From positions 78,739-142,738 of the forward strand of contig NEWR02000016.1 of the NCBI GenBank assembly GCA_002869885.2: a stretch of DNA of 64,000 bases. Reading direction: 5' to 3'. Below the pieces are notes generated by a model. The model was not told the origin of the DNA and did no database searches. It worked only from the letters and a program-made list of their open reading frames with translations. Position 1 is the first letter of the stretch, and each line of letters begins with the position of its first letter. The translations under genes and the position numbers were made by a program. Origin of the DNA: Nitrospira sp. CG24C (GTDB taxonomy: Bacteria; Nitrospirota; Nitrospiria; Nitrospirales; Nitrospiraceae). Of the stretch, positions 9,112 through 54,198 are shown piece by piece.

Positions 9112-10263
9112 CTAAGAGTCGGAGCGGTCGGTCGGGCTAGTCGCTATCGCCATGGCAGGGAGGGACGCCTTGCACTCCTGAATGACGCGGGAAAAGAGCT
9201 CGGTCAATTTCGGTTCGAAGTGGGTGCCGGCATACGCAAGCATCTGTTGGCAGGCGTCATCAATCGAGAGGGGTGTTCTGTCAGGAAGTTCCGCGGTCAG
9301 ATGGTCGAACGTTTGCGCCAGACAGACAATGCGAGCCAGTTGAGGGATTCCTTCTTTCTGAAGTCCAAATGGGTAACCTGACCCATCCCACCGTTCATGG
9401 TGATAAGCAATAATCTGTCCCACCTCAGCCGGAAGGCCCAACGCGGACACGAGCTTCGCACCCTGCTCCGGGTGATGCCGATTGCCGATCGATTCTCCGG
9501 TCACAGTGATTTCATCGTCGGCAAATCGATAGGGTTCAGGCCCGATCTTACCGATGTCGTGGAGGAATGCCCCCAGCGCCAATGATTTCTGTTCAGCGGC
9601 GGTCAGGTTGATGCGATTGGCCAAGAGGGTGGCGTAGAAACTGACTCGGCTGCAGTGGTTGAGCAACTGGCGATCCTTGGCTTCAAGCAGGTCTGAGAGC
9701 AACGGGAGAGGGTCCGGTGTTTGTTCAGCGCAGGAGGTACTATCTGATGCAGGCTTTCCGATCGCCTGGTATCCCGCAAATAATTCCTTCCACGCTTGCG
9801 CGCTTTCGGTTTCGGATCCCCAGAGGCCGGTTGTTGTCCCGATAAAATGCCTGAGGAAATCGAGCCGTTGCTTCTTTTCGATGGTCTGTTTGACGAGCGA
9901 AAGCAATTCCGTGACGTTGAAAGGTTTGAGCAGGTAGCCGGCGGCGCCATGGCGTATCCCTTCCATGGCAGACTTTAAGCTTCCATATCCGGTGATGATG
10001 ATGACCTCAATGTCGGCGTGGTGTTGCTTGATGTCCTGAAGCAAATCCAGGCCCTGGCGATCTGGAAGCTTTTGATCGAGGGTGATGAGATCGATCCGCT
10101 GTGAATTCAGGAGGCGTATCGCTGCACTGCCTGATTCCGCTGTCTCAACATTGAAAAAGGGGCGGAGAATCACTTTGAGCGCGTCACGAGGTCCTGCCTC
10201 ATCGTCGATGACGAGCAGGGTCGGCTTATTCTTTATTGATTCCGCAGTCGCAGATATGTTCAC
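9112..10263 (-). CDS. Response regulator with HD-GYP c-di-GMP phosphodiesterase domain
   Basis: Receiver domain at residues 13-130 with the acidic pair D20-D21, phosphoacceptor D63 (LITLDQKLP), T91 and K113. A linker of about 60 residues leads to an HD-GYP domain (about 190-370): FLHDIGKIG with H235-D236, then HHERWDGSGYP at 288-298, so the metal and GYP motifs are intact. Such proteins hydrolyse c-di-GMP to GMP or pGpG. The start is GTG at 10263 with AGAGGA seven bases upstream. A sequence matching a sigma54 promoter lies 35-50 bases before it, and the preceding gene on this strand encodes an NtrC-type activator, suggesting this gene is its target. Confidence 0.88.
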   Translation of the reverse strand: MNISATAESIKNKPTLLVIDDEAGPRDALKVILRPFFNVETAESGSAAIRLLNSQRIDLITLDQKLPDRQGLDLLQDIKQHHADIEVIIITGYGSLKSAMEGIRHGAAGYLLKPFNVTELLSLVKQTIEKKQRLDFLRHFIGTTTGLWGSETESAQAWKELFAGYQAIGKPASDSTSCAEQTPDPLPLLSDLLEAKDRQLLNHCSRVSFYATLLANRINLTAAEQKSLALGAFLHDIGKIGPEPYRFADDEITVTGESIGNRHHPEQGAKLVSALGLPAEVGQIIAYHHERWDGSGYPFGLQKEGIPQLARIVCLAQTFDHLTAELPDRTPLSIDDACQQMLAYAGTHFEPKLTELFSRVIQECKASLPAMAIATSPTDRSDS

Positions 10264-10297: not shown

Positions 10298-10313
10298 AGC
10301 AATTCTTGTTCCA
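10298..10313 (-). promoter_or_regulatory. Putative sigma54 (-24/-12) promoter for the HD-GYP gene
   Basis: Reading the minus strand, TGGAAC, five bases, TTGCT. The consensus is TGGCAC, N5, TTGCW, so the GG and GC elements are present at exact spacing with one mismatch. Transcription would begin near 10287, giving a leader of about 24 bases that holds the ribosome site. Confidence 0.6.
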
Positions 10314-10371
10314 TTTCAGTGAGTTAGCACCACTGACTCAATGGAGTGTAGCTTGTGTGTGATTGAAGCCC

Positions 10372-10404
10372 ATATGTAGTTTTCTTGAACGCAACACTAC
10401 GTAT
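10372..10404. promoter_or_regulatory. Inverted repeat, candidate enhancer-binding site
   Basis: ATATGTAGT and ACTACGTAT are inverted copies (8 of 9 pairs match) separated by 15 bases, centred about 100 bases upstream of the predicted sigma54 start. That is a usual distance for an NtrC-type upstream activator site. A second imperfect inverted repeat (TGAGTTAG, five bases, CTGACTCA) at 10320-10340 lies just upstream of the -24 box. Confidence 0.4.
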
Positions 10405-10464: not shown

Positions 10465-11892
10465 CTATTCCTGCACTACGGCTGGAGGTTCGGCGCTGAC
10501 TTCCTGATCCGGACGTCCGATTCCCAGCGTGTCCATTCGGTACTTGAGCATCCGACGGCTGATTCCCAGCAGGTTGGCTGCATGGGTTTGGATGTAGTTC
10601 GTTCGCTTGAGGGCATCCAAGATAATTTCCCGCTCAAATTCCATGACGGCTTTTTCAAGCGACAGTCGCCCGGCGAGCGTGTCATCACGAAGCGAGGAGG
10701 ACCGGGAGTCGTTTTTGAGAACGGCCGGGAGATGCTCGGGTGTGATGATGTCCGATCCCTTGGACCAAATGAACGCCTGTTCAATGATGTTCTCCATCTC
10801 CCGAACATTGCCTGGCCAGGGATAGCGGGACAGAAGATCGATGGCTTCCTTGGAGAACTCTTGGGGGGCCCGACGGTCTTCTTCAATACGTTTGGCTAGA
10901 AAATGTTTGGCGAGGAGTGGAATATCCTCTCCGCGCTCCCGGAGGGGAGGCAAATACAGTGCAATGACGTTGATGCGGTAGTAGAGGTCTTCGCGGAATT
11001 GCCCCTTGCGAACGAGGTCTTCGAGATTCTGGTTCGTCGCCGTGACGATACGCACATCTACCTTGATGGATTGTACGCCACCGACTCTGGTGAACTCTCG
11101 TTCTTGCAAGACGCGCAGCAGCTTGGCTTGCGTCATGGCGCTGAGGTCGCCGATCTCGTCGAGGAAGAGCGTGCCGGTATTGGCGAGTTCGAATTGCCCG
11201 ACTCGACGGGCCGTGGCATCCGTAAACGAGCCTTTTTCATGGCCGAACAGCTCACTTTCGATGAGCGTTTCAGGAAGGGCTGCGCAGTTCAGCGCAATGA
11301 AGGGGCGCTCACGCCTGCCGCTATTATAGTGGAGCGCCTTGGCGACCAGTTCCTTGCCCGTGCCGCTCTCGCCGCCGATCAGGACCGTCGTGCGGCTGTC
11401 GGCGACTTGTTCGATCTTGGTGTAGATATCCTGCATCGACGGGCTCTTGCCGATCAGGTTATGAAAGGCATAGCGCCGAACGACTTGCGCACGGAGTTGT
11501 TTGACTTCTCGTTGGAGTTCCTGGTCGCTGAGCGCGCGTTCGACGATTAGGCGGAGTTCTTCCACATCGAAGGGTTTCGAGAGGTAGTCGGCTGCGCCAA
11601 ACTTCATCGCATCGACGGCGGTTTTGACCGATTTTGTTCCTGTCAGCATGATCACCGGCGCCGTCCGGTCCTCGGCGCGTATGGTTTGGAGTACTGACAG
11701 CCCGTCGGTGCCCGGCAGAATCACATCCAATAGGACCAGGTGAGGAGCTTCCTTGCGAAATAGCTCGAGGCCTTCCTGGGCATCGGCGGCTTGGATCGTT
11801 TCGTAGGTCGGTTCCAGTACTGCCTTCAATGAGGCCCGAACCCGGGCCTCATCATCGATCAACAGCACTCGTTTTTTCATACTGGTGTCCAT
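10465..11892 (-). CDS. Sigma54-dependent NtrC-family response regulator
   Basis: Three domains: receiver at residues 5-125 with phosphoacceptor D56 and K105; AAA+ domain about 145-385 with Walker A GGESGTGKE (172-180), Walker B LFLDEIGD (241-248), R-finger region and the sigma54-contacting loop GSFTDA at 220-225 (family consensus GAFTGA); and a C-terminal Fis-type helix-turn-helix (THAANLLGISRRMLKYRM). The ATG at 11892 or the one four codons later could be the start. It follows the histidine kinase gene by 13 bases, so these are probably a cognate pair. Likely targets are the sigma54-like promoters at 10298-10313 and 17516-17531. Confidence 0.93.
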   Translation of the reverse strand: MDTSMKKRVLLIDDEARVRASLKAVLEPTYETIQAADAQEGLELFRKEAPHLVLLDVILPGTDGLSVLQTIRAEDRTAPVIMLTGTKSVKTAVDAMKFGAADYLSKPFDVEELRLIVERALSDQELQREVKQLRAQVVRRYAFHNLIGKSPSMQDIYTKIEQVADSRTTVLIGGESGTGKELVAKALHYNSGRRERPFIALNCAALPETLIESELFGHEKGSFTDATARRVGQFELANTGTLFLDEIGDLSAMTQAKLLRVLQEREFTRVGGVQSIKVDVRIVTATNQNLEDLVRKGQFREDLYYRINVIALYLPPLRERGEDIPLLAKHFLAKRIEEDRRAPQEFSKEAIDLLSRYPWPGNVREMENIIEQAFIWSKGSDIITPEHLPAVLKNDSRSSSLRDDTLAGRLSLEKAVMEFEREIILDALKRTNYIQTHAANLLGISRRMLKYRMDTLGIGRPDQEVSAEPPAVVQE

Positions 11893-11905: not shown

Positions 11906-13183
11906 CTATGCGGGTAACGCGGGTAGGCTCACGAAAAATGTAGTGCCGACGCCGACCGAGCTTTTCACTCGGATCTCGCCATGATGTTCTTGAATGATTT
12001 GATGGACGATCGTCAAACCCAATCCCGTTCCTTCGTGTTCTCCGCTCTCGTGCTTAGTCGTGAAAAATGGATCGAAAATATGTTCGAGATTCGTCTCCTG
12101 GATTCCCTCACCCGTGTCTTCGATTTCGATGTGGGCCCAGACGTTCCCTCCCGGCTTCACGAGCTTGTGGGTGTGAACGCGCAAACGCCCACCCGCTTTT
12201 GCCATCGAGTCCATGGCATTGAGCAAAAGGTTGAGTAGGACTTGCTTGATCTGCTGTCGGTCCAGCATGACACGAGGCAGGTCAGACGCCAACTCTTTTT
12301 CAATCTTGATCCCGTAGCTGTCTGCCTTGACATCGATGAAATAGAGGCAGGAGACGACAATGTCGTTGAAGTCCTCCTCCGTCAGCTTGGGTTCCATGTA
12401 GCGGGCGTAATCGAGAATTTCCTGGATGAGCCGTTCGATCCGATACACATCGTCGAGCACCACTTTGCTGAATTCTTGGATAAATTGAGAGTCGTCTTTC
12501 CGTTCTGGAGCCAATTGGATAAAGGTTTTAATCGACGTGAGGGGGTTTCTGATTTCATGGGCGAAGCCCCCGGCGATTGTTTCAAGGGATTTCAGGCGAT
12601 CGGTTCGCTTCATGAGCATGTGTGAACGATGGAGATCCTCGTACAGCATAATGGTGTCCAGCGCATTCGTAGCGGTTTGTGCCAGCGCAGCGAGCAGGAG
12701 CTTGTTCGGTGCAATCTCTCCGGCCAAAGGCTGTGCTGCGCCGAGGAGTGAGAAGGCGATGAGGCGGCCTTTATTGAGGTGTGGCACGACGCGTGTGACC
12801 TGCATGGATTCCATGGCTGCGCGTGTGTCGACTCCGGAGTCGTGGTCTTGGATATCTGCAGCCGAGTCGGTCTGTGTCATGATCCGGTTGGTTCCGAGCA
12901 GATGGAGGGGCAGAGGATGGCTCATGTCCAGTGTCGGAGGAATAAGCGCTGGTGCGACAGGGCCAACCATACTGGCGCGGCGATAGCATTCGTGTTCACG
13001 ATCCAACAGGAACAGCACTCCATGGGTCGTGGCGCCTGCATGACACAGCTCGTGGATGATGCGATTCCCGAGTGTCAGCAGATCGGTCATGGCTCCAAGA
13101 TCGGCTGCAAACTGTGTGACGATATTCAATAGTGTGCTGGAGGAAGGCGATACGATGTCAGCCTCAGATGCGTGTGATGTCAT
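11906..13183 (-). CDS. Soluble sensor histidine kinase with GAF-like domain
   Basis: No membrane segment or signal peptide is seen. Residues about 15-190 form a GAF-like sensor (ALTDLLTLGNR-type start, GVLFLLDREHECYRRASMV). The dimerisation domain carries the phosphoacceptor in FAHEIRNPLTSIK, then N-box LLNLLLNAMDSM, G1 DTGEGI, F-box IFDPFFTTK and G2 GTGLGLTIVHQII, so all catalytic boxes are intact. The frame opens at a GTG (13198); the ATG at 13183 is preferred, though neither has a clear ribosome site. The gene lies between the giant multidomain protein and the sigma54 response regulator on the same strand and is probably the kinase of the latter, with the giant protein as an additional input or output. 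Confidence 0.9.
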   Translation of the reverse strand: MTSHASEADIVSPSSSTLLNIVTQFAADLGAMTDLLTLGNRIIHELCHAGATTHGVLFLLDREHECYRRASMVGPVAPALIPPTLDMSHPLPLHLLGTNRIMTQTDSAADIQDHDSGVDTRAAMESMQVTRVVPHLNKGRLIAFSLLGAAQPLAGEIAPNKLLLAALAQTATNALDTIMLYEDLHRSHMLMKRTDRLKSLETIAGGFAHEIRNPLTSIKTFIQLAPERKDDSQFIQEFSKVVLDDVYRIERLIQEILDYARYMEPKLTEEDFNDIVVSCLYFIDVKADSYGIKIEKELASDLPRVMLDRQQIKQVLLNLLLNAMDSMAKAGGRLRVHTHKLVKPGGNVWAHIEIEDTGEGIQETNLEHIFDPFFTTKHESGEHEGTGLGLTIVHQIIQEHHGEIRVKSSVGVGTTFFVSLPALPA

Positions 13184-13297
13184 AATTATCGTGAGCACAA
13201 TGGCACCGTGTGGCTCGGCGGCGGGCCTACGGACTGAGCATGGAAAATTTAAGTGTTCAAAGATGTACGGGCTGAAGTATACACGGCACCGATACGT

Positions 13298-16200
13298 TCA
13301 GCTAGCGGATTTATCTTTCTCGATCACGGCGAAGAGGGCGTGCCCGTCGAACCCAGAAAGGATGCGGGGTGTGAGGATGCCGGCTTGCCGGAGGAACGAG
13401 GTGAGCGAAGACCGGTCGAAGGTGTGCAGCAACCCATGCCGGATAGCCTCCCGGAGTCGTCCAAGATAGTGTAAGAGGAGGTGGGCTTCTGGACTAAATT
13501 CATCTTGATTTGCCCTGTGCAGATGCTGGCGATAGAGAACAGAGAGATCGGTGTCGGGGTGGAAGACCGTGAGGATCAGCCGCCCCTGTGGATGGAGTAT
13601 GCGGTACAGCTCCCGAATCATGATCAGCGGTGAGGGAACGAATGGGAGTGACAGATTACAGACGATGCGATGGAGGGAGCGGTCCTTGAAAGGAAGGGGC
13701 TGGGTCCAATCAGCTTGCATCCATTCGGCAGTCAGGGGAGGGTGGATGGTCAGGGTACCTGCGAAGTCTGTATCGAGTTCCCGCCGCAAGGCCTGAAGAC
13801 TCTGTTGGGCCTGCATCAGTGAGTCTTGAGCCTGCTCGAGGCCGATCACCTGAACGGGACGCTCCGGACTCCATCCACGCTGGCGCGAGCGGTAAGCGTG
13901 GTTGACCATTGCGGCTCTGACGAAATCGCCTTGACCGACGCCCACGTCCAGAAGCATGGAGCCCGGTTCGAGCGGGCTGAGCAACCGGTAGAGATCGTCC
14001 AAGAGTTTCCAATGTTCATGGAGATTTCCGAGTTGGGGAAGCTGCTGCAGATGCGTGGCTCTCAAGGCCTCACGCGTAATCTGGGAGAGATTGTGGCGAA
14101 GACAGGTGCGTTCCATCTCGATGCGCTGTTGACGGGCCAGCATGTGACGGGTGTCTGCACGGAATTCAGCAGGAATGGCCGGTAGCGAGACAGTTGTGGC
14201 GATCTGTTCCAGGACCTGTTGGAAGGCCGGGGGGTGCTGTTCGCCGAGCGGAAGTTCCTGGCCGAGCAACGGTGCGGGAGCTGTCGCTAAACGGGTATGG
14301 GCTCCCAGCGCGGTGAGAAATGCCTGAGGGAGATCAGCGGGAGGGAGTGGCCCGAGTGGGTTGCTGGGAATCGTGAGGATGGCTGACGGGGAGCGAAGGA
14401 GACGCAGATCAGCAATCGTAGAGGCCATATCTGTGAAATGGCCTGCGACGACATCACCGATAAAACGATCGACATTGACATTGAGCCCGAGCAGATTCGC
14501 GATGCCGCGTCGGAGCCCATATCTATGGTCGGCCACGAGATCATGCCCATGGACCGTCATGAGCATAGCTTGAATATCGACGACCGGATTGATCAGGAGA
14601 AGTAGGTCGAGGGGACGGGATTGCACCGCTGTCTTGATAGCGACGCGCGCGGCCACGTCACTCGCCATGACAATCAGAGGAGCGGTCGGCCAGGTATGTT
14701 GCACAAACTCCACAACTTTAAGAAGGTCAGCTTGCATACTTCGTAGGGTTGTCTGTTGCAGCTCGCCGTCGCTCAGCCCCACATGGTTGGTGTGGTCGTA
14801 ACGCAAAACTCGGAGCCGGTGATGCGCCAAGTAGTACGACAAGGTAATGGCGTCCAACGAGGTCTGGCCATAGCCGGGAGAGATGATGACGACCGGTGTG
14901 TTCGGTGTGACCGATTGGCGAAGATGGTCGTCGGTGATCACAATCGCCTGGCCGCGTAGATTCCGGCACTCTCGCGGAATACTGACGACCGACGCCTGTT
15001 GCGAGGAGGGTTCCAATTCGCCTGGGGACGACAGATGTTGCAGGACAACACGGTTCACTTCACGCTCAGCGTAGACAGTGAGGCCTTGAAAGCGGAGACC
15101 GACCCGAAGGGCAGGGGCGGATCCTTGGTGACGAAACTCACTCGGCGCTGTGGGATCAGGAGCCGACCAGATTATCCGGGCTGGCAGTGCAGCATCCGGC
15201 GCACCAGGCTCATGGGTTCCAGGATGTTTCTGGGTCTGTGTGACGGCAAAGTGCAGCGTAGTCATACCGTTCAGGAGTTCAGGGCGAGCATTGAGATGAA
15301 GACAGGCGCCATCTCGGCTGAGGTTGCTGGTGAGTGCTTCGAGGCGGTAACTTCTTCCGGAAGGGTCCATGACATCGAGTCGGACCGGGAGCTGCAAAGG
15401 TACTCGTACGGCCTCGCGCTGGTCGAAGTCCTTCCGTTCGTGCAGTACGAGGGGGTTAGTAGCAATCAGATTGCCCTGTGGTTCTACCGCAAGCAGTACT
15501 TCAAGAGAGAATGGAATGGCTTGTTCCTGCGCCGCTTGGACGAGCGAGGCAAGGACGGCGTTTTCTTCTTGCTTGAGGGGCTCAAACATCACAATCAACT
15601 GGGCGGCCGGTGTTTTGGTTTGAAGCGAGACTGACCGTTCCTGTGCCCTACCTTGCAACTCGAGAATACCCACGGACGTCTTGATCACCACATACGCGTC
15701 TTGCGGCGAAACGGTGGGGAAATCGCCTGGGAGTGTGATGCAGGCTCCTCTGAGATTGAGGTTTGAAATGGTACCATCCCATGCGACTGATCCAACGGTA
15801 ATCGTGGCTGGCAGGGTAGTGAGAATTCGAGGCACATGGCGTCGCTCCTGCTTCGGTTTGTCAGGGTCGGCAGTTGGAAGAGGCGTCGGCCTGTCGTCTT
15901 TCGTGGTCGGCGTGAGTGCGGGTTCGGTGTCAGGGACGGCAATCGGCAGCGGGGGTATATCGAGAGGGAGCGGAGAGGCAACCGGCAGACGGAGGATCAT
16001 ACGAAAAGGGCCTTGCATCGGAGCCGACAAATCCAGGGCGCCGTTCAGTTGACGGACGAGCTCATACGACTCGAGGAGATCAATGGGCGAGGACACTGTC
16101 GCTGGAGATGCTGCCGACCACACGATGTCGGATTCAAGCAGCTCGACTTCGATCTCAGTAGGTGGGGTGAGGGGAAATAGGGTGGGAGCGTCTGCAGAGG

Positions 16201-17485
16201 TGGAGGAAGATCCCACTGCCCGTGTGCTCACGATGAGTCGGTGCGTGCGGCCGACCGTCAGTAAATAGGTCTGTGCATAGTTCAAGAGATGGAGAATGAG
16301 TTTCGTGACCTGTTCGCGATTCCCAACGAGGGGAGGGAGGTGAGCGGGGTATTGCCGTATGATGCCGGCACCATCCACAATTGCTGAGGTTGTGGGCAAT
16401 AGTGCGTCGTCAAGAACCTCGTTGATCGTCGGTCCTAAGGGGCCACCTTCTCTCTTGTGGAGGGCTTCCGCCAACTGTGCTCCGAGTTTCGTTGCTTCTG
16501 CGGCGTGGGCGGCGAGTATTTCGGCTTGGTCGTCCAGCCGCGCGTCGCGAATGGCAATAAGGAGTTGTTGCGACTGTGTCAGTAGCGAGGCCAACGGATT
16601 GTGCAGCTGTTGCGACAACAGGGAGGCTTTCTGGGCCAGCCCGAGCAGTGCCTCTTTCTGCAGAAGTTGCTGGTGAAGTTGCTGAATCGTCGTGTTTTGC
16701 TCTTTGGACGTGGAAAGGTCTCGGATCAATCCCACTGTGCCGAGAAATCGGCGAAGCGGGTCATAGAGTCCACGAGCGTTCACCGCCGCTGTGAGAGTCA
16801 GTATTTTGTTATCCGGTGTGGGTTTCCGCCGCAGGGTCAACTCAACGCGGCTGGCGCCCCGCGCTCCGGATCGACGTTCGTTGAGGCGATAGCGAGCCGC
16901 CGATTCCTGGCCGGCAGGAACGATCGTGGTATAGGGCAATCCGATGAGTTCATCTGGTGAGTAACCCAATAGCATGACGATACTGGGACTGACTGTCACA
17001 AAAAATCCGCCGGCATCCAGTTCATAGGCGATGTCGTTGAGCGATTCGATGAGCCCACGATGGCGTTCGAGTGCGTGGTCCAGGGTCATTCTCATGTGGC
17101 GTGTTTCGATGGATTTTTTTGCACAGAACAGGAGTTCCGTGAGAAAGGCCGGAGATTTCTTCGAGAGAAAAAAATCGACGTCGGCTTGGAGTGCCTGAAG
17201 CGCCGAGGCTGAATCGCTACGGTCGCTGAGCAGAATACTCGCCACGTACGGTGCGTGGCGTTTGAGTTCGCCAGGCAGTGAAGTATCCTTCCCGGCGAGG
17301 CATTGTTCGTCGATGAGGATGAAGACCCATTCGTGAGATGCCGCCCATGCGCGGGCTTCTTCGGCTGAATAGGCGACATCCACGCGGCAGCCGGGAAAGA
17401 ATCCACGCAAACTGATCGTGATGAGTTTAATGGACTCAGCCTGTTCGCTGACAATCAGGATGGTGACCGGTTCACTCTGTGGCAT
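13298..17485 (-). CDS. Giant fusion: receiver-like, PAS, pseudokinase, 2x PilZ, LuxD-like hydrolase, SAM methyltransferase
   Basis: About 1395 residues. In order (from the ATG at 17485): receiver-like domain 8-120, with an Asp at the phosphoacceptor position (FILIDEQC) but no acidic pair; PAS 137-256; a kinase-like region with H-box remnant QQLHNPLASL (H295) and a C-terminal piece resembling the end of an ATPase domain but no G-boxes; Pro-rich linker; PilZ 1 (RRHVPR near 549, NLNLRG) and canonical PilZ 2 (REAVR near 690, NLSRDG near 721); an alpha/beta hydrolase 841-1056 whose RYDHTNHVGLSDG closely resembles LuxD fatty-acyl transferase; and a class I methyltransferase 1156-1395 with motif I LLDVGVGQG. 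The LuxD nucleophile position appears to be Asp (VMASDVAAR). A frame open to 17617 exists, but a sigma54-like promoter lies between 17485 and there, so the shorter start is used. Function unknown; c-di-GMP binding is likely. Confidence 0.8.
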   Translation of the reverse strand: MPQSEPVTILIVSEQAESIKLITISLRGFFPGCRVDVAYSAEEARAWAASHEWVFILIDEQCLAGKDTSLPGELKRHAPYVASILLSDRSDSASALQALQADVDFFLSKKSPAFLTELLFCAKKSIETRHMRMTLDHALERHRGLIESLNDIAYELDAGGFFVTVSPSIVMLLGYSPDELIGLPYTTIVPAGQESAARYRLNERRSGARGASRVELTLRRKPTPDNKILTLTAAVNARGLYDPLRRFLGTVGLIRDLSTSKEQNTTIQQLHQQLLQKEALLGLAQKASLLSQQLHNPLASLLTQSQQLLIAIRDARLDDQAEILAAHAAEATKLGAQLAEALHKREGGPLGPTINEVLDDALLPTTSAIVDGAGIIRQYPAHLPPLVGNREQVTKLILHLLNYAQTYLLTVGRTHRLIVSTRAVGSSSTSADAPTLFPLTPPTEIEVELLESDIVWSAASPATVSSPIDLLESYELVRQLNGALDLSAPMQGPFRMILRLPVASPLPLDIPPLPIAVPDTEPALTPTTKDDRPTPLPTADPDKPKQERRHVPRILTTLPATITVGSVAWDGTISNLNLRGACITLPGDFPTVSPQDAYVVIKTSVGILELQGRAQERSVSLQTKTPAAQLIVMFEPLKQEENAVLASLVQAAQEQAIPFSLEVLLAVEPQGNLIATNPLVLHERKDFDQREAVRVPLQLPVRLDVMDPSGRSYRLEALTSNLSRDGACLHLNARPELLNGMTTLHFAVTQTQKHPGTHEPGAPDAALPARIIWSAPDPTAPSEFRHQGSAPALRVGLRFQGLTVYAEREVNRVVLQHLSSPGELEPSSQQASVVSIPRECRNLRGQAIVITDDHLRQSVTPNTPVVIISPGYGQTSLDAITLSYYLAHHRLRVLRYDHTNHVGLSDGELQQTTLRSMQADLLKVVEFVQHTWPTAPLIVMASDVAARVAIKTAVQSRPLDLLLLINPVVDIQAMLMTVHGHDLVADHRYGLRRGIANLLGLNVNVDRFIGDVVAGHFTDMASTIADLRLLRSPSAILTIPSNPLGPLPPADLPQAFLTALGAHTRLATAPAPLLGQELPLGEQHPPAFQQVLEQIATTVSLPAIPAEFRADTRHMLARQQRIEMERTCLRHNLSQITREALRATHLQQLPQLGNLHEHWKLLDDLYRLLSPLEPGSMLLDVGVGQGDFVRAAMVNHAYRSRQRGWSPERPVQVIGLEQAQDSLMQAQQSLQALRRELDTDFAGTLTIHPPLTAEWMQADWTQPLPFKDRSLHRIVCNLSLPFVPSPLIMIRELYRILHPQGRLILTVFHPDTDLSVLYRQHLHRANQDEFSPEAHLLLHYLGRLREAIRHGLLHTFDRSSLTSFLRQAGILTPRILSGFDGHALFAVIEKDKSAS

Positions 17486-17515
17486 CAAGATATCCCTGTG
17501 CTTACTGGGAATTCG

Positions 17516-17531
17516 AGCAAACCCAGTCCCA
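17516..17531 (-). promoter_or_regulatory. Putative sigma54 promoter for the giant fusion gene
   Basis: On the minus strand: TGGGAC, five bases, TTGCT, one mismatch from TGGCAC-N5-TTGCW with correct spacing. Predicted start near 17505, about 20 bases before the ATG at 17485, with AGGGA in between as ribosome site. This supports the downstream ATG over the longer open frame. Confidence 0.55.
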
Positions 17532-17786
17532 GAGCGACGATACAACGTTCGCCCGTGATCTGGTCTGAGCCAAACCAGTCCCCTATTCTTCTGCCGCACG
17601 CGGCCCGGGACACGCATCTTTGGATAGTGATGTGAATAGCATAGGCGGAGGTGGGAAACCCAGTCTTGATGCGGTGAAATAGGCTGTATCTTTAGTAGGG
17701 GGGAGGCAGCAAAACTTTGATGACGAACAAAATTGAACGGTGGTTGGGCACAAGGTTTGACGTTATGTGAGGGAGAGAACGCTGCA

Positions 17787-17832: not shown

Positions 17833-18837
17833 CTATTTAAAGGCGACCGGAGAAGGAGCTGTAGCTGGACAGGCGCCAGGGGTCATGTACAGCAAATAGT
17901 TTCCCATCCCATGTTGGGCTTCTTTTTTCTGCAAGGGATGGTGATGGACCATGACCATCTCATAGTCATCAGCCTTCGTCACAGGAAACCCCTGGCTGTC
18001 CTGATAGACCTGATGCGGTAGAAACTCGCGGAAGGTTCCGTCCTGGGTGACATCGGGAACCGTCCGCAGCAGAGTTTGCTTCTTCGTCATATTGTCCAGC
18101 CCGATCATGAGAAGTTCGTCATGCCCATGCGGGTAGGCAAATTTCACACAGCCATCCATCGAGAACTTGAGCGGCTCGCGGTGGACTTGGACTCCGGTTG
18201 TAATCTCAATTCCTTCGTCCGTCTGGTTTGGGCCTCGCTGGGAGAACTTGCTGAAACATACGATGTTGACCCCCACCTGATACACGTCCATTTCTTTGAT
18301 AGGGGTACCCTCCGGCGCCATGTACATGGTGAAGGTTGCCATGACATCTTTGGTGACCGGTGCCCCGTGATAAAAGGCGACGATCGACATGAGATGATCG
18401 CTCTTCGCGAGCTTGACTCCATAGCCTGCTGGGAACCGTGTCTCGGTCATCTCCAGCCCCGCTCCAGCAAAGAACAACGGTTCGCCGTCGCATGAGACGC
18501 TCGGTTTGCTGTTGTTGAGCATCAGGATGTGATGGAGATAGTTTTTGGGGAGGGGTTTCCCTTCTTTGGTGAAGACCGCAGTCTTGTATCCGATCATATA
18601 CCTGTCTTTGGGAAGCTGAAAACTATGTTTAGGCATTGAGGCTGCCAGGTCTCCATCGTGAGAAGCGGGGAGGTCGATGGGACCGAACGTGAGGGTCACG
18701 ACATCGCCCTGAACCGTGACGGTCGTAGTCGTTTGATTCTTGAGTGTCGGGACTGCATGGTGGTCGTGACCGCCGTCAGCAAGGGCAGGAGTCACCAGAC
18801 AGATGCCGGCGAGCAGAGTGAGAAGTACCTGACGCAT
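17833..18837 (-). CDS. Exported protein of unknown function, His-rich, possible copper monooxygenase-like fold
   Basis: The frame opens at 19014, but the ATG at 18837 has GGGAGG just upstream and starts a typical signal peptide ending ALADGG; 334 residues. After the leader is GGHDHH. Conserved-looking segments include NYLHHILMLNNSKPS, VAFYHGAPVTKD and VMVHHHPLQKK; paired histidines spaced this way recall copper type II monooxygenases and the plant Nod19 family, but I cannot confirm either. Four cysteines could pair in the periplasm. It follows another exported protein gene on the same strand after 77 bases, probably an operon. Not recognised with confidence. Confidence 0.7.
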   Translation of the reverse strand: MRQVLLTLLAGICLVTPALADGGHDHHAVPTLKNQTTTTVTVQGDVVTLTFGPIDLPASHDGDLAASMPKHSFQLPKDRYMIGYKTAVFTKEGKPLPKNYLHHILMLNNSKPSVSCDGEPLFFAGAGLEMTETRFPAGYGVKLAKSDHLMSIVAFYHGAPVTKDVMATFTMYMAPEGTPIKEMDVYQVGVNIVCFSKFSQRGPNQTDEGIEITTGVQVHREPLKFSMDGCVKFAYPHGHDELLMIGLDNMTKKQTLLRTVPDVTQDGTFREFLPHQVYQDSQGFPVTKADDYEMVMVHHHPLQKKEAQHGMGNYLLYMTPGACPATAPSPVAFK

Positions 18838-18914
18838 AGAGCCTCCCAAGGATAAAAAGTGGTCACGCAAATATTCGGAACGCCGATCGTAGAGGCCTGT
18901 GTGATACGCAGATG

Positions 18915-19802
18915 TCATCGTGCGGACGGGAGCGGGGTCAGTCGCTTCCAGAGATAGGTTCCGCCATGTTCGCGAGGAGGAATGTTCTTTTGAGTTCCGA
19001 CACGGGAATACCACCAGACTCCCTTGGCCTGGGTTCCATCCTCTGAGAGGAGGAGTTCAAATTCTCCTTCGCGATCGTTGCCGGGCTGCTGCCAGCTACC
19101 TTGCCAGCGACGGTCTGAAAATTTTGAAGTCATGAATCGCCCACCATGCTGGGTATAGGGGCCGTTGCCGGCTTTGTCGAGTGTGGCCTTGTAGCGCTTG
19201 TCGTCCTCCACCTCGAGGATGTCCCATTCCCCGCTCAAGTCAAGGACGGCTGGTTGGCTGATCGATGAAGCCACAGTGCGTGGCGCAGCGGCATTTGGCT
19301 GAATATCGACAGCTATCGCACCGCCGGCATTGCGGAAGGACTCATGCCACGAGAGGAGGATCCACTGTCCGTTTCGACGTTCAAGCACGCCGGTTTCTCG
19401 TAACGGCAGGACCGCGCGTTCCTGGCCCGGTCCTTGGCCGAGGACACGCACATAGTCCAGCTCCATCGTGTACCACCCAATATCTCCCTTCGACCACACC
19501 TTGAGTTCAGAGATGGGAAGGTCGAGCGCAGCTACTTTCTCAAACTCCTCCTTGATATCCCGTTCAAGGTTAGGCCAACCCACGTATTTCCGGCCTCCGA
19601 TGGAATAGCTGATGATGTCGGCGTCGTGGGCCATTAGTTTGGACATGGCGGGGAGATCTTTTTCCGCATTGGCCCGCACAAGGGCTCGGACGGTCGTTTC
19701 AAGTTCGGTATTATCCGCAGCGCTGCTCTTGGCCGCGGGAACCCAGCAGAGCCCGCCGATGACCATATACATGATGAGACGAATCAGTACGGGCACACGC
19801 AT
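18915..19802 (-). CDS. Exported SnoaL/NTF2-like protein
   Basis: ATG at 19802 is preceded by ACAGGAGC and starts a signal peptide (MRVPVLIRLIMYMVIGGL, cleavage near AKSSAAD); the frame extends 30 codons further upstream without reason to use it. Residues about 30-150 look like an NTF2/SnoaL fold (VRANAEKDLPAMSKLMAHDA, then VLERRNGQWILLSWHES), a cone-shaped domain used for ligand binding or small-molecule catalysis. The last 110 residues (SGEWDILEVEDDKRY, WQGSWQQ, GVWWYSRV) look like a separate beta-rich unit. Function unknown; 296 residues. Confidence 0.72.
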   Translation of the reverse strand: MRVPVLIRLIMYMVIGGLCWVPAAKSSAADNTELETTVRALVRANAEKDLPAMSKLMAHDADIISYSIGGRKYVGWPNLERDIKEEFEKVAALDLPISELKVWSKGDIGWYTMELDYVRVLGQGPGQERAVLPLRETGVLERRNGQWILLSWHESFRNAGGAIAVDIQPNAAAPRTVASSISQPAVLDLSGEWDILEVEDDKRYKATLDKAGNGPYTQHGGRFMTSKFSDRRWQGSWQQPGNDREGEFELLLSEDGTQAKGVWWYSRVGTQKNIPPREHGGTYLWKRLTPLPSAR

Positions 19803-19917
19803 GATGAAGCTCCTGTCGGGTTCACAAGGGAAGCGGGAGGAAAGACTGTCCAGCTGGATTTGCAGGCTACAGGGTCGATAGAGCCTTGTCAATAATTAAA
19901 CTGCGCATTTGTTGAAA

Positions 19918-20691
19918 CTATCCGATAGTAGGCGGCGTGCATGCCACGACGATTACCGTCACATTATCTTCTCCCCCTCTGCTCAGCGCCTGATCGACTA
20001 GGTCGTGGCAGGCTCGGCGAGGATCGCCGTTTGCGCGGGAAAGAACCGATGCAATAGCGGAGTCCTCCAACATTTTCGTGAGCCCGTCACTGCAGAGCAT
20101 GATGAGATCGAGAGGGATTATCGGTGTCGAGGTCAGTTCCGGTTTCATGTCGATGCCCAGGCCGAGGCCTTTGGTCAAGATGTGGCGCTCGGGATGTGTG
20201 AGCGCTGTGACCGCATCGATCAGGCCGCGCTGCACAAACGACTCGACGAGGGTGTGATCGCGAGTCAATTGCTTGAGCTGTCCTTCTCGGAAGAGATAGG
20301 CGCGGCTATCTCCCAAGTGGGCGACATGGGCGGCCGGAATCGGCGCCGGTGTCATTGCCAAAGCGACGAAGGTCGTGCCCATCCCTTTCAAGGATGGATT
20401 TGCCAGTATGAGATGATGAATTCGCCGGTTGGCGCTCATCACAAGATCGGCAACGAACTCGGCGGCTGCGCTCGGGTGCTCGTGAAACCAGGTTGCCCGT
20501 TCCAGTGCCTGCTGTGCGGCTACGGTCACGGCAGTTTGGGCTGCGATATCTCCTGCCGGGTGCCCACTCATCCCGTCTGCCACGATCCAGACGCCGCAAT
20601 CATTCAGGACGGCCAGCGCATCCTGGTTCGACGTGCGAACATGACCCTTCTCGGTTCGACCCACTCCGGCCCACTGCTGGGGTTGCGTCAC
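19918..20691 (-). CDS. PP2C-family serine/threonine protein phosphatase
   Basis: A 257-residue stand-alone PPM phosphatase. Motifs in order: VRTSNQDALAV (metal-binding Asp), WIVADGMSGHPAGD (the DGMGGH motif), GTTFVALAM, HLGDSRAYLFR, LTRDHTLVESF, LCSDGLTKML and GGEDNVTVIVV, so the metal ligands are intact. Such enzymes reverse Hanks-type kinases; no kinase is in the window. Start is GTG, overlapping the stop of the upstream RNase H-fold gene by four bases (GTGA), which implies coupled translation. Confidence 0.93.
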   Translation of the reverse strand: MTQPQQWAGVGRTEKGHVRTSNQDALAVLNDCGVWIVADGMSGHPAGDIAAQTAVTVAAQQALERATWFHEHPSAAAEFVADLVMSANRRIHHLILANPSLKGMGTTFVALAMTPAPIPAAHVAHLGDSRAYLFREGQLKQLTRDHTLVESFVQRGLIDAVTALTHPERHILTKGLGLGIDMKPELTSTPIIPLDLIMLCSDGLTKMLEDSAIASVLSRANGDPRRACHDLVDQALSRGGEDNVTVIVVACTPPTIG

Positions 20692-21524
20692 AGCGCGACC
20701 TCGATCGGCTGTGGCCGGCGAGTTGGTGGAAACCCCAGAGAAGGCGGGCCGAATCGTGCAATCATCTGATCGTAGAGCAGCGATGCAAGCGGTTCAAGAT
20801 TTTTGGTGTCGGCTTCGTTGTACTTCAGCAATAGAGTGCGCGCAGTCTCATCTCCCGCGCACCACTGATGCCAAAGGCGAACAGCTTCCCATCCGTCGAG
20901 TCCCGCCACATCGGTGTCGCGAGCAATCTGGACTTCGCGTTCGATATGCTTCAGCCCGCCTTGCATGCCGAGCCTGCGGGCGGCAAAGCACAGATCGAAG
21001 TGGGGTTTCTTGAAATTTAAACGGGGGAATTTCGCCTGCAAGTAGGGAATGTCGAACCCGCTGCCGAAGAACGTAATGAAGAGGTCTGTCTGTTCCAGCT
21101 CCGCATGCAATCGGTCCTCGGTCAACGTTTCTCCTCGGACCAGGCTTGTCATGTGCCCGTTGCGAAACAATCCAACCACCGTCACGTGACCTTCGTGTGC
21201 CGGCATTCCTGTCGTTTCAATATCCAGATAGAGCGTACGAGGTCGAAATGTTTCGAACAGGCGCCAGTGCTCCCGGCTTTTCAGGCAAGCGCCGAAGAAC
21301 TGCGCGTCGCCTTCTTCCAGGCGCGATTGGGCGACGGCGAGGTCACGGTCATACCATTCTTTTCTGGCCGAGGAGATGCCGGGGAGAGCTGGAGCTCGAA
21401 GAAATGAAGCCCAATCCAGAATGCCTTCTTGCCACAGACGGCGCTCGGAACTTTGGCCGATACCTTTGAGAAGAACGAAGGATGATGAAAGCATATGGTC
21501 GAGGGATTGTAGCCTTGATTTCAC
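20688..21524 (-). CDS. YprB-like RNase H-fold exonuclease
   Basis: 278 residues. An N-terminal helix-hairpin-like stretch (LLKGIGQSSERRLW) is followed by a DEDD-type nuclease: YLDIETTG supplies the first Asp/Glu, FFGSGFDIPYLQ the second Asp, and KYNEADTKNLEPL the last acidic group. This matches the YprB ribonuclease H-like family, of uncertain substrate. Start could be GTG 21524 or ATG 21494; neither has a clear ribosome site. It is divergent from the gene at 21601 and overlaps the phosphatase gene downstream, an odd but tight pairing. Confidence 0.82.
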   Translation of the reverse strand: MKSRLQSLDHMLSSSFVLLKGIGQSSERRLWQEGILDWASFLRAPALPGISSARKEWYDRDLAVAQSRLEEGDAQFFGACLKSREHWRLFETFRPRTLYLDIETTGMPAHEGHVTVVGLFRNGHMTSLVRGETLTEDRLHAELEQTDLFITFFGSGFDIPYLQAKFPRLNFKKPHFDLCFAARRLGMQGGLKHIEREVQIARDTDVAGLDGWEAVRLWHQWCAGDETARTLLLKYNEADTKNLEPLASLLYDQMIARFGPPSLGFPPTRRPQPIEVAL

Positions 21525-40335: not shown

Positions 40336-43300
40336 TTATCGGCGAGTCGAGACTGAATCCTCTATCGGACAGGCGGACGGGACACCTCGGCTGTCGTAGG
40401 TAAACGTCGTGACCTTGTTGTCCGCATCCGTGATGGTGAGGGGGTTGCCTTTCACGTCATACGTGATGTTGGTCTGATTGCCTTTGGGGTCCGTGATGCG
40501 CGTGACCTGATTGAATGTGGGTTCGTAGAGAAAGCTGGTTGTGGCGGCAATGGCCTGCTCGGTGCTGGTGAGGAGATTGCCCTTGGCGTCGTAGGTCATC
40601 GTGGTGATCGCGCCATTGGGGCGCTGGATGCGGGTGGGATTGCCCTGGGGATCGCGCGTGATGGTGGTGGTGCGATTCAACGGATCGATCTGTTTGGTCA
40701 CCCGGCCCAAGGGATCGGTTTCGAACGAGGTCGTGTGGGTGTTGGCGTCGGTGAACATGGCGCTGTTGACCGGCGCTGCGAGCGGAGCGGGATTGGCGGG
40801 CGTGCCTTCGCCCGCCGCGACGTTCGGGACGGCGAGCCTTTGGCTGGGCGAGAGCTTCCGCGTCTGGCCCGTCGGCAGCGTCACCTGATTCAAGCGGCCC
40901 GTGGAGTCGTACTGGTACTGATAGAGCGTGCCTCTCGCATCCGTCCGCTGCGTCATGCGGCGCTGCGGGTCATACGCAAAGGTTTCGGTGCTGCCGTCGG
41001 GAGCGGTGATCGCGGTGAGCGCACCCACCGCATCATGCAGGACCGTCGTGACGCGTCCGGCCGGATCGGTGATCGAGGCCAGCCGCCCCTGCGTATCGTA
41101 GGCCAGCGTTGTGACTTGGCTTGCCGGATCGGTGATCGTGGTGAGCTGGCTGCTTCCATTATAGGCGTACGTCGTGGCGTTGCCGTTGCGATCCGCTATG
41201 CTGGTTTGCAGCCCCTGCGCGTTGAATCGATACGTCGTGCCGTCTTTCAGCCTCCTGGTGTAGGTGCCGTCGGACTGTTGCACGATTGTCGAGAATTCCC
41301 CCGGTGGGCCTTGAAAGATCGGCGAGGTTCCCGGCAGCGGCAGTGGGGTGCGGAAGCCCGGCGCGCCCGCGAGAAAGGCGATGGTGTTCAGGAAGAACGG
41401 ACGATTGTTGAGGTTGTTGTACTGATTCGACGCCGGATTGACAAAGCCACTCGCGAAAATTTCTTCATCCCCGACGACGACGGCCCGGCCCCGGCTGGAC
41501 GGAGCGGTCGGCTGGAAGAGCAAGACGTTGGGGCCAGCATCGTTCCGAGCGATTACCGTCGCGTCGTCGGTGGTGGCATAGGAGCCGTTGCCGCCCATGG
41601 TCAGCGCGGGACCCACGTTGCCGAACGGGCCCTGGCCGAGGGGCGACGTGGCGCCTTCCGGTGTGATATCGATCGCCGTGTCAGCAATGAACGAGCCCGG
41701 CAGGGTGCCGAGTAACAAGGGGCGGGTACTGACGGCATCCCGCATTTCCAAGAGTGCGCCGCCTTCGGCGACGAACTGCTCCAAGACCACGACTTCGGAA
41801 GACGTGAGTTGGGACGCCGGGTAGTTCAGGATGAACATATCGGTGCCCGCCAACCCGTCGAGGGTGAGGGTGTCGAGGCCGGTCCGGAGGGTCACCGATC
41901 GTGGGACGATGCCTGCCGGAGCAAAGTTCGCCGGATTGAGGAGATCCGCCCGCGCCTGGGCATGGGCCTGACCCGCGACAAAACTGGTGCTCCGCCCCGC
42001 CACCGTGAGACTGCGCGCCAGGCTGAAACTGTCGATGACGAGCGGTCGCCCGGCTTGTCCGTAGACCTGCAGCCGGCCGTCGCCCTGGGCCAGGAGCAGC
42101 GTGCCGTTGTTTTGGGGAAGCAGCCGATCGAGCCCGTCGAGCGTCCAGCCCGCACCGAATGCGCTCGCCCGTTCGTTACGGAGGAGCAGGTGATCGGTCC
42201 GTGCGCCGCCGATGCTCGATTGCGGATAATTCGAGAAGAGCATCAGCTCGTAGGGATAGCGGCCAGTGGCCAGTCCCCTTGCGTCAAACTGGACCCCTAG
42301 TCGGGAGACGGAGTCCACATTCTCCGGCAAGCCGGCGGCGTTCCAGAACAGCTCGTTTCCTTGCTGCGTGCCAGCGACCGTCAGCCGTGCGGAAAAGGTG
42401 GGCGGGACGGCGGCCCGCTGCTGCAACAGCGCGTCCACTGGAAGAATGGGACGGACATCCGCGCTCGTCGAAGTGTAGCGCAAGGTCAGATTCCGCACCG
42501 CTCCGACGCTCCGGACCCCCGGAATCACCAGTTTCTGCGTCAGCGCGCCTTCCGTCAGATCTCCCTGCGAGCCTGTGTCGCAGGGTGTGCAGGGGCCGGC
42601 TTGCTGAGTTTGGCCTGTTCGACTGTTGACGCCAGGTGCCAAGGCAAAATGCCACGCCGTCCGACGCACGCCGCCACTGATCGTTTCGAGGCGCTGGCCA
42701 TCGGCGCTGACTCGCGCCGTGCCGACCTGCAGGAACGTGCCGGTCTCTGGATAGAGGGACCAAATATCGACGTCGTTGCCGGGCGGCAGGTTGTCGAGGT
42801 TCGGAAACGTGATCGGCGCAGGCGGGTCCATGATAATGCCCGCCGGCTGAATCGTGACGGAGAGGCCTGGGCGCAGTTCGATCGGCCGCGATTCGGGCCG
42901 GCCATATTCTGGGACTGGGCTGAGCGTGAGTTGGCCGCTGTAATCCGTGCCGTCTGGATTCTTGGCCGTATGCGGCGGGATCGTCACGGTGACGTTGAGC
43001 GTGCTGCTTGTAAGGGTCGTAGCTGCTGCTGGGTTGACCGTCACGGCGGTGGCAGTATCGAGCGGCGGCAGGGTCAGCGGCTGCGGCAACTGGTTGCTGA
43101 CGTTCGGAATAATGTCCACCGGTGCCACCAGGTTAGCGAAATTCTGCGGCAGCCCGGTCACGACCAACTGCTGACGCCCGGTCGGCATTGTGGCCGAGGT
43201 GAGGATGAACGTGCCGTCGGCGGCAGTCATCGTGCTGAGAGCCGTGCCCTTGAGCGAGACGGCAAGATTGTCCAGCGGATGCTGCGACGTATCGTCCACG

Positions 43301-44508
43301 CGGCCAGTGAGACCCGTCACTCCCCCGGATGGCGCACCGGTGACGGTGATCGTGATGGCTTCCGAGGTCGTGAGGAGGCCGTCCGTGACGCTGAACGTGA
43401 GCGAGACTGTGCCGACCTGCGTCGCATCCGGCGTGAGCAGAAAGAGCCCCGTCTGGCTGTGGTAGCTCGCATGGGCCGGCAAGGGCAGCGGGGTGACGGC
43501 AAAGGTCACGGGATCGTTGTCCGGGTCGGTCGCCGTGGTGGTGAATGTGAGTGTGCTGCCGAGCGGGATCGTTTTGTTCCCGATCGGGGCCAGCTGGGGC
43601 GGGCCGTTGACGATCGTGAATGGGAGACTAGTGGAGGCGCCGCCGCCTGGTGCGGGATTCGTGACGGTCACCGGCACGGTGCCTTTGGCGGTGAGCAGCG
43701 CGGCGGGAATGGTTGCTGTGAGTTGCGTGGCGCTCACGACCGTGGTGACCAAGGCTGTCGTCCCGAACTGCACGATTGCCCCGTTCACGAACGACTGGCC
43801 GGTGACCGCGAGCGTCGTATTCGAACTCCCGCTCGGGAGACTCGCCGGCGAGAGCGTCGTGATCGAGGGCACGGGATTCGTCATCGCGCCGATCGTCACA
43901 TTAAATCGTGCGTTGCGGGTGGTGGCATCGAAGTAGAGCCGCAGGCCAACCGCGTTGTTGTGGCCGGGACATTTCGTCTCGTCCGGATTGGTCCCGATAC
44001 GGGTGCTGATCTTAACGGACAGCGTATCCGTGGTCCCGTTGAAGGGGACGGGTGAGAACGTCCCGAACGCAACCGTGGCCTCTTTGGCGTTGGCCGCGGG
44101 CCGGACGATCCCCGTGATGCAGCGCGTGAGCCCCGACGACACCAAGACTCCATTTTTGAAGACCTCGGCTTGGAGATCGAATTGCGTCCCTTGATCGTCG
44201 CTGTTCTTCAGCCCCAGCCAGACATGCAGATCGCTCAGGGCTGTCAGCGTTCCGCTGGTGAGGGAGGAAGCCGCCGGCCAGGTGCCGATGTCTTTCCAGA
44301 GATTGCCGCCGCTGAAGTTCACGCCGGCGGAGTCGCGAAACTTGGCCGTCGTCGTGGTAGGAGCCGTGGTGTTCAGCAGCAGTGTGGGTGGATTGTTGTC
44401 CGGGCCAGTGCCGTGGAGGAAGTAGTCGGAGGACGTCTGTGCGAACGCTGGCACCGCGAGGGCCAATCCCATCGCCAGCGCGGTGAGTGATATCAACCAT
44501 CGTCGCAT
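40336..44508 (-). CDS. Secreted YD-repeat (RHS-like) protein, probably truncated at the C-terminus
   Basis: 1390 residues. Signal peptide (LTALAMGLALAVPAFAQ), a Thr/Ser-rich beta domain, an IPT/TIG domain (about 213-300, SITTLSPASLPSGSSNTT), a cadherin-like Ig domain (about 305-390), a carboxypeptidase-regulatory-like domain (about 395-465), further beta regions, and from about 1120 YD repeats (NGNATTYAYNGSSQLTTI, YDSTGRLNQVTLPTG, TITRDPQGNPTRI). It ends at TYDSRGVPSACPIEDSVSTRR, with no RHS core or toxin domain, close to the transposase at 39294. The last 15 residues do not follow the repeat pattern. Codon use is strongly GC-rich and long open frames occur antisense. Likely a cell-surface protein; toxin delivery cannot be claimed. 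Confidence 0.78.
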   Translation of the reverse strand: MRRWLISLTALAMGLALAVPAFAQTSSDYFLHGTGPDNNPPTLLLNTTAPTTTTAKFRDSAGVNFSGGNLWKDIGTWPAASSLTSGTLTALSDLHVWLGLKNSDDQGTQFDLQAEVFKNGVLVSSGLTRCITGIVRPAANAKEATVAFGTFSPVPFNGTTDTLSVKISTRIGTNPDETKCPGHNNAVGLRLYFDATTRNARFNVTIGAMTNPVPSITTLSPASLPSGSSNTTLAVTGQSFVNGAIVQFGTTALVTTVVSATQLTATIPAALLTAKGTVPVTVTNPAPGGGASTSLPFTIVNGPPQLAPIGNKTIPLGSTLTFTTTATDPDNDPVTFAVTPLPLPAHASYHSQTGLFLLTPDATQVGTVSLTFSVTDGLLTTSEAITITVTGAPSGGVTGLTGRVDDTSQHPLDNLAVSLKGTALSTMTAADGTFILTSATMPTGRQQLVVTGLPQNFANLVAPVDIIPNVSNQLPQPLTLPPLDTATAVTVNPAAATTLTSSTLNVTVTIPPHTAKNPDGTDYSGQLTLSPVPEYGRPESRPIELRPGLSVTIQPAGIIMDPPAPITFPNLDNLPPGNDVDIWSLYPETGTFLQVGTARVSADGQRLETISGGVRRTAWHFALAPGVNSRTGQTQQAGPCTPCDTGSQGDLTEGALTQKLVIPGVRSVGAVRNLTLRYTSTSADVRPILPVDALLQQRAAVPPTFSARLTVAGTQQGNELFWNAAGLPENVDSVSRLGVQFDARGLATGRYPYELMLFSNYPQSSIGGARTDHLLLRNERASAFGAGWTLDGLDRLLPQNNGTLLLAQGDGRLQVYGQAGRPLVIDSFSLARSLTVAGRSTSFVAGQAHAQARADLLNPANFAPAGIVPRSVTLRTGLDTLTLDGLAGTDMFILNYPASQLTSSEVVVLEQFVAEGGALLEMRDAVSTRPLLLGTLPGSFIADTAIDITPEGATSPLGQGPFGNVGPALTMGGNGSYATTDDATVIARNDAGPNVLLFQPTAPSSRGRAVVVGDEEIFASGFVNPASNQYNNLNNRPFFLNTIAFLAGAPGFRTPLPLPGTSPIFQGPPGEFSTIVQQSDGTYTRRLKDGTTYRFNAQGLQTSIADRNGNATTYAYNGSSQLTTITDPASQVTTLAYDTQGRLASITDPAGRVTTVLHDAVGALTAITAPDGSTETFAYDPQRRMTQRTDARGTLYQYQYDSTGRLNQVTLPTGQTRKLSPSQRLAVPNVAAGEGTPANPAPLAAPVNSAMFTDANTHTTSFETDPLGRVTKQIDPLNRTTTITRDPQGNPTRIQRPNGAITTMTYDAKGNLLTSTEQAIAATTSFLYEPTFNQVTRITDPKGNQTNITYDVKGNPLTITDADNKVTTFTYDSRGVPSACPIEDSVSTRR

Positions 44509-51387: not shown

Positions 51388-51400
51388 AATCAGGCCGTTG

Positions 51401-54193: not shown

Positions 54194-54198
54194 CAAAG

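Follow-up and report, generated by a model that had tools for sequence, protein, structure and literature searches.

A LuxD-like pseudo-hydrolase fused to PilZ domains in Nitrospira: a putative non-catalytic regulator linked to cyclic di-GMP

The window analysed here is a stretch of 64,000 nucleotides from Nitrospira sp. CG24C (assembly GCA_002869885.2, contig NEWR02000016.1, positions 78,739 to 142,738 of the forward strand), and the gene in question encodes, on the minus strand, a protein in which signalling domains are fused to a LuxD-like and a methyltransferase-like domain. Positions 13298-17485 (-) form a single open frame of 1,395 amino acids with its stop at 13298. The start at 17485 (MPQSEP...) is backed by orthologues; initiation at the ATG at 17617, which is in frame, would lengthen the protein by 44 amino acids. 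A first-pass annotation of this DNA, made from the letters alone, had described one frame of about 1395 residues with seven modules in order, and the open reading frame, Pfam and structure prediction agree with that description:

13298..17485 (-): fusion gene, REC-PAS-pseudoHK-PilZ-PilZ-LuxD-like-MTase (open reading frame, Pfam, orthologues)
17111..17485 (-): degenerate receiver, residues 1-125 (Pfam, alignment, Foldseek matches to receivers)
16700..17074 (-): PAS domain, residues 138-262 (Pfam)
15971..16693 (-): histidine-kinase remnant with a degenerate ATPase half, residues 265-505 (alignment, Foldseek)
15521..15850 (-): PilZ-1, residues 546-655, with RRHVPR and NLNLRG (Pfam, alignment)
15032..15433 (-): PilZ-2, residues 685-818, with REAVR (RxxxR) and NLSRDG (NxSxxG) (Pfam, alignment)
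14231..14992 (-): LuxD-like pseudo-hydrolase, residues 832-1085, Asp943 at the nucleophile position (Pfam, alignment, fold)
13313..14038 (-): class I methyltransferase-like domain, residues 1150-1391 (Pfam, alignment, fold)

A Pfam scan of the fusion protein revealed PilZ in two stretches (PF07238, 1.4e-12), Acyl_transf_2/LuxD (PF02273, 7.1e-13, 48.9 bits against a cut-off of 20.3), Methyltransf_11 (1.3e-7) and PAS (6.7e-7). The receiver match amounted to 1e-4, under the family cut-off, and no match to the HisKA or HATPase families was obtained. For residues 820-1395 the predicted structure (predicted local distance difference test, pLDDT, 85) shows a LuxD-like hydrolase and, after it, a class I methyltransferase, and the first 830 residues, predicted less well (pLDDT 66), gave Foldseek matches to receivers and PAS-histidine kinases. 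Complete or near-complete orthologues with the same domain order occur in about 20 further genomes of Nitrospira (genus g1) at 60-95% identity, and also in the genera g2, g6, g17 and g21. Since many Nitrospira genomes hold such orthologues in a single frame, the fusion is real and does not stem from sequencing or assembly; in-frame stops listed for some matches in the phylum were ordinary terminal stops. The two findings that the first-pass annotation had named as fatal to its own proposal, a lack of LuxD or PilZ profile matches and a sequencing error joining separate genes, were therefore not encountered.

The relationship to LuxD goes beyond the motif from which it had originally been claimed and is one of true homology. 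In addition to the PF02273 match above cut-off, the best match in the PDB for the model of residues 820-1395 was the LuxD thioesterase from Vibrio harveyi (1THT, E 1.2e-14), and a profile of deep relatives matched 1THT at 2.6e-33, the next hydrolase following at 1.7e-10. Triad columns were set by HMMER alignment with 1THT, in which the catalytic serine is chain position 114. In relatives from the family, the order and other Nitrospirota classes, these columns hold Ser, Asp (within DxW) and His (within LHR). The 29 long fusions whose neighbours were scored all have an invariant aspartate in place of the serine and lack DxW and LHR; the columns of the window protein read Asp, none and none. In L131 the second and third columns do contain Asp and His, though not as part of the motifs, the relative L136 still shows Asp, Asp and His, and in genera g22 and g25 the nucleophile column is Gly. 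Because all three catalytic residues are replaced, the fusion protein is not expected to transfer acyl groups in the manner of LuxD, and the earlier proposal that it modifies an acyl group is at odds with the state of the triad in the window protein and in every long fusion examined.

Loss of the triad has not been followed by decay of the domain. Pairwise ratios of nonsynonymous to synonymous substitution rates (dN/dS) lay at 0.09-0.19 in the LuxD-like domain, at 0.10-0.15 in the methyltransferase and at 0.12-0.24 in the PilZ domains; the values of the first two do not exceed those of the other domains, and only the linkers are consistently loose. Such low dN/dS values for the dead LuxD and methyltransferase domains indicate that the former is under purifying selection rather than drifting. 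Also, the PGxG and RxDHxxHxGxSxG loops beside the former active site vary hardly at all between intact-triad and dead versions.

The modules ahead of the LuxD-like domain are conserved to different degrees. In the receiver, Asp59 at the phospho-acceptor position is invariant in 16 orthologues, the acidic pair has become S-E and the lysine is mostly kept. The segment QQLHNPLASL, which had been taken for an H-box remnant, does align with the kinase H-box, and Gln stands at the position of the histidine. Throughout the genus Nitrospira this histidine is replaced by Gln, Arg or Glu, and it is retained only in one locus of g6 (L061). RxxxR and NxSxxG had been reported twice; both motifs are found in PilZ-2, whereas PilZ-1 of the window protein combines RxxxR with NxNxxG. 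RxxxR of PilZ-1 is present in all 16 sequences compared and its second motif varies, with Asn in this genome in place of the Ser that most Nitrospira orthologues have. For PilZ-2, RxxxR and [D/N]xSxxG are retained in 16/16 sequences. These motifs support, at the sequence level, the link to cyclic di-GMP (c-di-GMP) drawn by the first-pass annotation, and the fusion protein would bind c-di-GMP via PilZ.

The predicted C-terminal fold matches class I methyltransferases dependent on S-adenosylmethionine (SAM), and the window protein has an intact motif I (DVGVGQG), as the first-pass annotation had noted, together with the acidic Glu that follows strand 2 (GLE). Across the genus the SAM-binding residues vary: many Nitrospira orthologues have Gly at the acidic position, and L062, L066, L060, L133 and others have a broken motif I. 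Methylation by the window protein is possible.

Relatives from across the phylum point to the likely origin of this protein. Their core is [PilZ]-LuxD-methyltransferase (547-1,190 amino acids), with an intact triad and an intact DxGCGxG. At every intact-triad locus with sufficient flank (23 loci), the enzyme gene is co-inherited with a downstream membrane sensor kinase, which is a histidine kinase exceeding 700 amino acids with multiple predicted transmembrane (TM) segments, often after a gap of only a few bases; where scanned with Pfam, these kinases are 7TM-GAF-HisKA-HATPase proteins with the 7TM region at the N-terminus. One gene fusion joins the two, as genome G327 encodes (L100, 6383-11308, +) a 1,641-amino-acid protein in which PilZ-PilZ-LuxD-methyltransferase with an intact triad continues into 7TM-GAF-HisKA-HATPase. 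Genus g5 (L056) has receiver-PAS-PilZ and PilZ-LuxD-methyltransferase as two adjoining genes, an arrangement that corresponds to the long protein in unfused form. A scan of genome contigs with short peptides of the window protein returned close relatives only, and a plasmid search for LuxD-methyltransferase fusions returned one plain lux acyltransferase and nothing else. In four genera, a separate PilZ-FabH (KAS III) gene lies upstream of the 7TM kinase:

L057, 7158-8756 (-): PilZ-FabH gene (PilZ by Pfam; FabH Cys-His-Asn residues present by inspection)
L113, 6933-8498 (-): PilZ-FabH gene; the LuxD domain is missing there
L142, 7118-8701 (-): PilZ-FabH gene at a contig end (PilZ by Pfam)
L143, 7973-9148 (-): PilZ-FabH gene at a contig end

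PilZ-FabH could be a c-di-GMP-controlled ketosynthase, of which we found no description. The position of these genes upstream of the 7TM kinase suggests acyl-thioester chemistry as the theme of the ancestral cassette, and the fusion probably descends from a PilZ-LuxD-methyltransferase in which triad and SAM motif were both intact and whose gene adjoined that of a 7TM-GAF kinase. The new lipid-signal/c-di-GMP system suggested for the window protein is in much better agreement with these relatives (intact triad, 7TM kinase, PilZ-FabH) than with the window protein itself.

Downstream of the fusion gene lie a histidine kinase, an NtrC-like activator and an HD-GYP protein, in an order that is conserved across the family; Pfam and synteny thus agree with the cluster originally described:

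11906..13198 (-): soluble histidine kinase of 430 amino acids, His intact (AHEIRNPL) (Pfam, alignment)
10465..11892 (-): NtrC-type sigma54 activator with GSFTDA for GAFTGA (Pfam, alignment)
10369..10403 (-): inverted repeat GTAGT...ACTAC upstream of the HD-GYP promoter, half ACTACATAT best conserved (alignment)
10298..10313 (-): sigma54 -24/-12 element TGGAACAAGAATTGCT upstream of the HD-GYP gene (conservation)
9112..10263 (-): receiver-HD-GYP phosphodiesterase, HDIG...HHERWDGSGYP (Pfam)
17516..17531 (-): possible sigma54 element before the fusion gene, common to close relatives only

Of 31 upstream regions that were aligned, 28 retain the GG-N10-GC of the element before the HD-GYP gene, and few features of these regions are as well conserved. 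Sigma54 matches across the whole window numbered 25 against 31 expected, showing no excess over chance, so that the promoter assignment rests solely on conservation across loci. The inverted repeat is a candidate activator site. The loop by which the activator contacts sigma54 reads GSFTDA in 38/41 relatives having the motif. In NorR, a G-to-D change at the matching position leads to constitutive activity (PMC2941729), and by this analogy the NtrC-like activator may be regulated unusually. In one Nitrospira locus lacking the fusion (L206, 5405-8356, -), the AAA+ part of the activator lies within a 983-amino-acid frame with a different N-terminus. The genome encodes 6 GGDEF proteins.

Taken together, these data lead us to favour, by a modest measure, the view that the fusion is a non-catalytic c-di-GMP-binding regulator derived from a retired signal-making enzyme. 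The ancestor would have been a PilZ-LuxD thioesterase-methyltransferase whose gene adjoined that of a 7TM-GAF histidine kinase, and its product may have been a diffusible, possibly methylated acyl compound sensed by the 7TM part of the kinase. In the Nitrospira lineage, a receiver, a PAS domain and a kinase remnant would then have been added to the enzyme, and its triad would have been lost, as would the 7TM part of the kinase. In the present protein, c-di-GMP would bind to PilZ, PilZ-2 above all, and an acyl ligand is perhaps held in the dead LuxD fold. Ligand binding might alter the action of the fusion on the adjacent soluble kinase and NtrC-like activator, and these might raise HD-GYP expression from the sigma54 promoter, so that c-di-GMP would fall and the loop be closed, if this direction is correct. 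The long dead fusions adjoin a soluble kinase of 420-462 amino acids, which in alignment covers the GAF-HisKA-HATPase portion of the 7TM kinases, and in 45 rows a non-Ser nucleophile goes with a short kinase 25 times and Ser with a multi-TM kinase 19 times; a single row departs from this pattern. Genomes of g17 hold both arrangements: their short copy has an intact triad and a multi-TM kinase next to it, and their long copy is dead and adjoins a short kinase; the fusions of g22 and g25 have no kinase gene alongside.

Several observations weigh against this view. The exceptional row, L057 (f2), has Asn at the nucleophile position and yet a 7TM kinase, although a PilZ-FabH gene is present there. 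The association of triad loss with 7TM loss represents one or two evolutionary events when tested with independent pairs, a single origin not being rejected (approximately unbiased test, p 0.5), and is therefore a suggestive pattern of little statistical weight; moreover, TM numbers are crude hydropathy counts, with PF16927 support in four kinases. In 10/12 sampled fusion-lacking loci, the fusion gene is absent with the kinase and NtrC genes in place; in 9 of these 10 the latter lie directly by a homologue of the 17833-19014 gene, and 8 keep the HD-GYP gene. Since kinase and activator persist in this way, the fusion is an accessory input, dispensable for the core circuit. Both the ligand and the product in the scheme are postulated, and retention of Asp59 in the receiver makes a phosphorylation input to the fusion protein still possible.

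In a different explanation, the protein is a plain scaffold responding to c-di-GMP and phosphorylation without any small-molecule ligand, its LuxD and methyltransferase folds serving only as interaction surfaces. The retention of Asp59 and the PilZ motifs alongside the loss of enzymatic residues, and the clustering with a histidine kinase and response regulator, would be expected for such a scaffold. However, the conserved RYDHxxHVGxSDG and PGYG beside the former active site argue for a kept pocket, although structural constraints could explain them, and we regard the scaffold as rather unlikely. The first-pass proposal survives in modified form as a c-di-GMP-gated methyltransferase whose substrate is held by the LuxD-like domain. 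Intact DVGVGQG and GLE, the low dN/dS and the matching fold speak for it, but the Gly substitutions and broken motif I in other members of the genus, together with the absence of any remaining LuxD catalytic residue, render it improbable. Finally, the exchange of Ser for Asp might have created a new hydrolase with an Asp nucleophile, as in haloalkane dehalogenases and epoxide hydrolases. The Asp is invariant at this position in all long fusions, and L136 retains Asp, Asp and His; however, the mechanism of those enzymes requires His, the remaining long fusions have neither His nor acid motifs, and the Asp and His of L131 fall outside the motifs, so that we give this explanation very little credence.

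Beyond the regulator itself, we put forward, tentatively and as something we would not yet bet on, a lipid-type communication system of Nitrospirota, in which a c-di-GMP-gated LuxD thioesterase-methyltransferase would signal to an adjoining, once fused, 7TM-GAF kinase, with a PilZ-FabH enzyme sometimes accompanying or replacing the synthase, and in which the Nitrospira synthase would now be a non-catalytic receptor combining acyl status and c-di-GMP. Nitrospira are key nitrifiers in soil, in drinking water and in water treatment; the signalling described for them in the papers found is of the acyl-homoserine-lactone type only (e.g., PMC8553950). The candidate second system comes with intact versions and an enzyme-receptor gene fusion, and natural deletions of the regulator could serve as controls. 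The living lineages also provide a rare stepwise series from enzyme to regulator, with an intact triad, Asp with acid and His (L136), and full loss.

Other features of the window were recorded as well. Upstream of the fusion, a block at 17833-21524 (-) is syntenic across the family and encodes a protein without Pfam match (17833-19014) as well as SnoaL-like, PP2C phosphatase and RNase H-like proteins. At 51398-56334 (+), a hybrid kinase with Hpt is followed by a receiver-PAS-GGDEF-EAL protein, a further c-di-GMP module. A 1,390-amino-acid protein with TIG, Ig-like and RHS repeats is encoded at 40336-44508 (-), with long frames on the opposite strand (42361-44055, +).

In the open-access literature, a scope that leaves preprints and most subscription journals outside, no description of this domain order was found, in line with the statement of the first-pass annotation that none was known; the order itself is common in Nitrospiraceae. 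By profile and fold, the closest solved relative is LuxD, the myristoyl-ACP thioesterase of bioluminescence (1THT, PF02273, NF052253), which shares the RYDxxxHVGxSxG segment. In contrast to LuxD, the window protein lacks the triad, is fused to PilZ and methyltransferase domains, has kinase, NtrC and HD-GYP instead of lux neighbours and, at 47 bits, stays far below the 420 required by the equivalog profile. In Ralstonia, the PhcB methyltransferase makes 3-OH-MAME/PAME, and the histidine kinase PhcS senses the product (PMC8578825). The ancestral cassette is similar in its logic, with a methyltransferase and a fatty-acyl-type enzyme beside a membrane histidine kinase, but differs in its PilZ domains and in that the enzyme is dead in Nitrospira. 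The membrane-GAF-HisKA kinases of the relatives and the sigma54 response regulator resemble PrsK/PrsR of the PEP-CTERM/XrtA system (TIGR02916, TIGR02915), in which they cannot be included, as the kinases score 101-144 against a cut-off of 300 and the regulator 437 against 503. Plant GID1-type receptors are dead alpha/beta hydrolases serving as hormone receptors and share with the fusion protein a hydrolase fold, the loss of catalysis and the regulatory role proposed for it, although they belong to an unrelated lineage. The parts are known, and their assembly looks like a pseudoenzyme regulator built from an apparent signal-synthase/sensor-kinase cassette.

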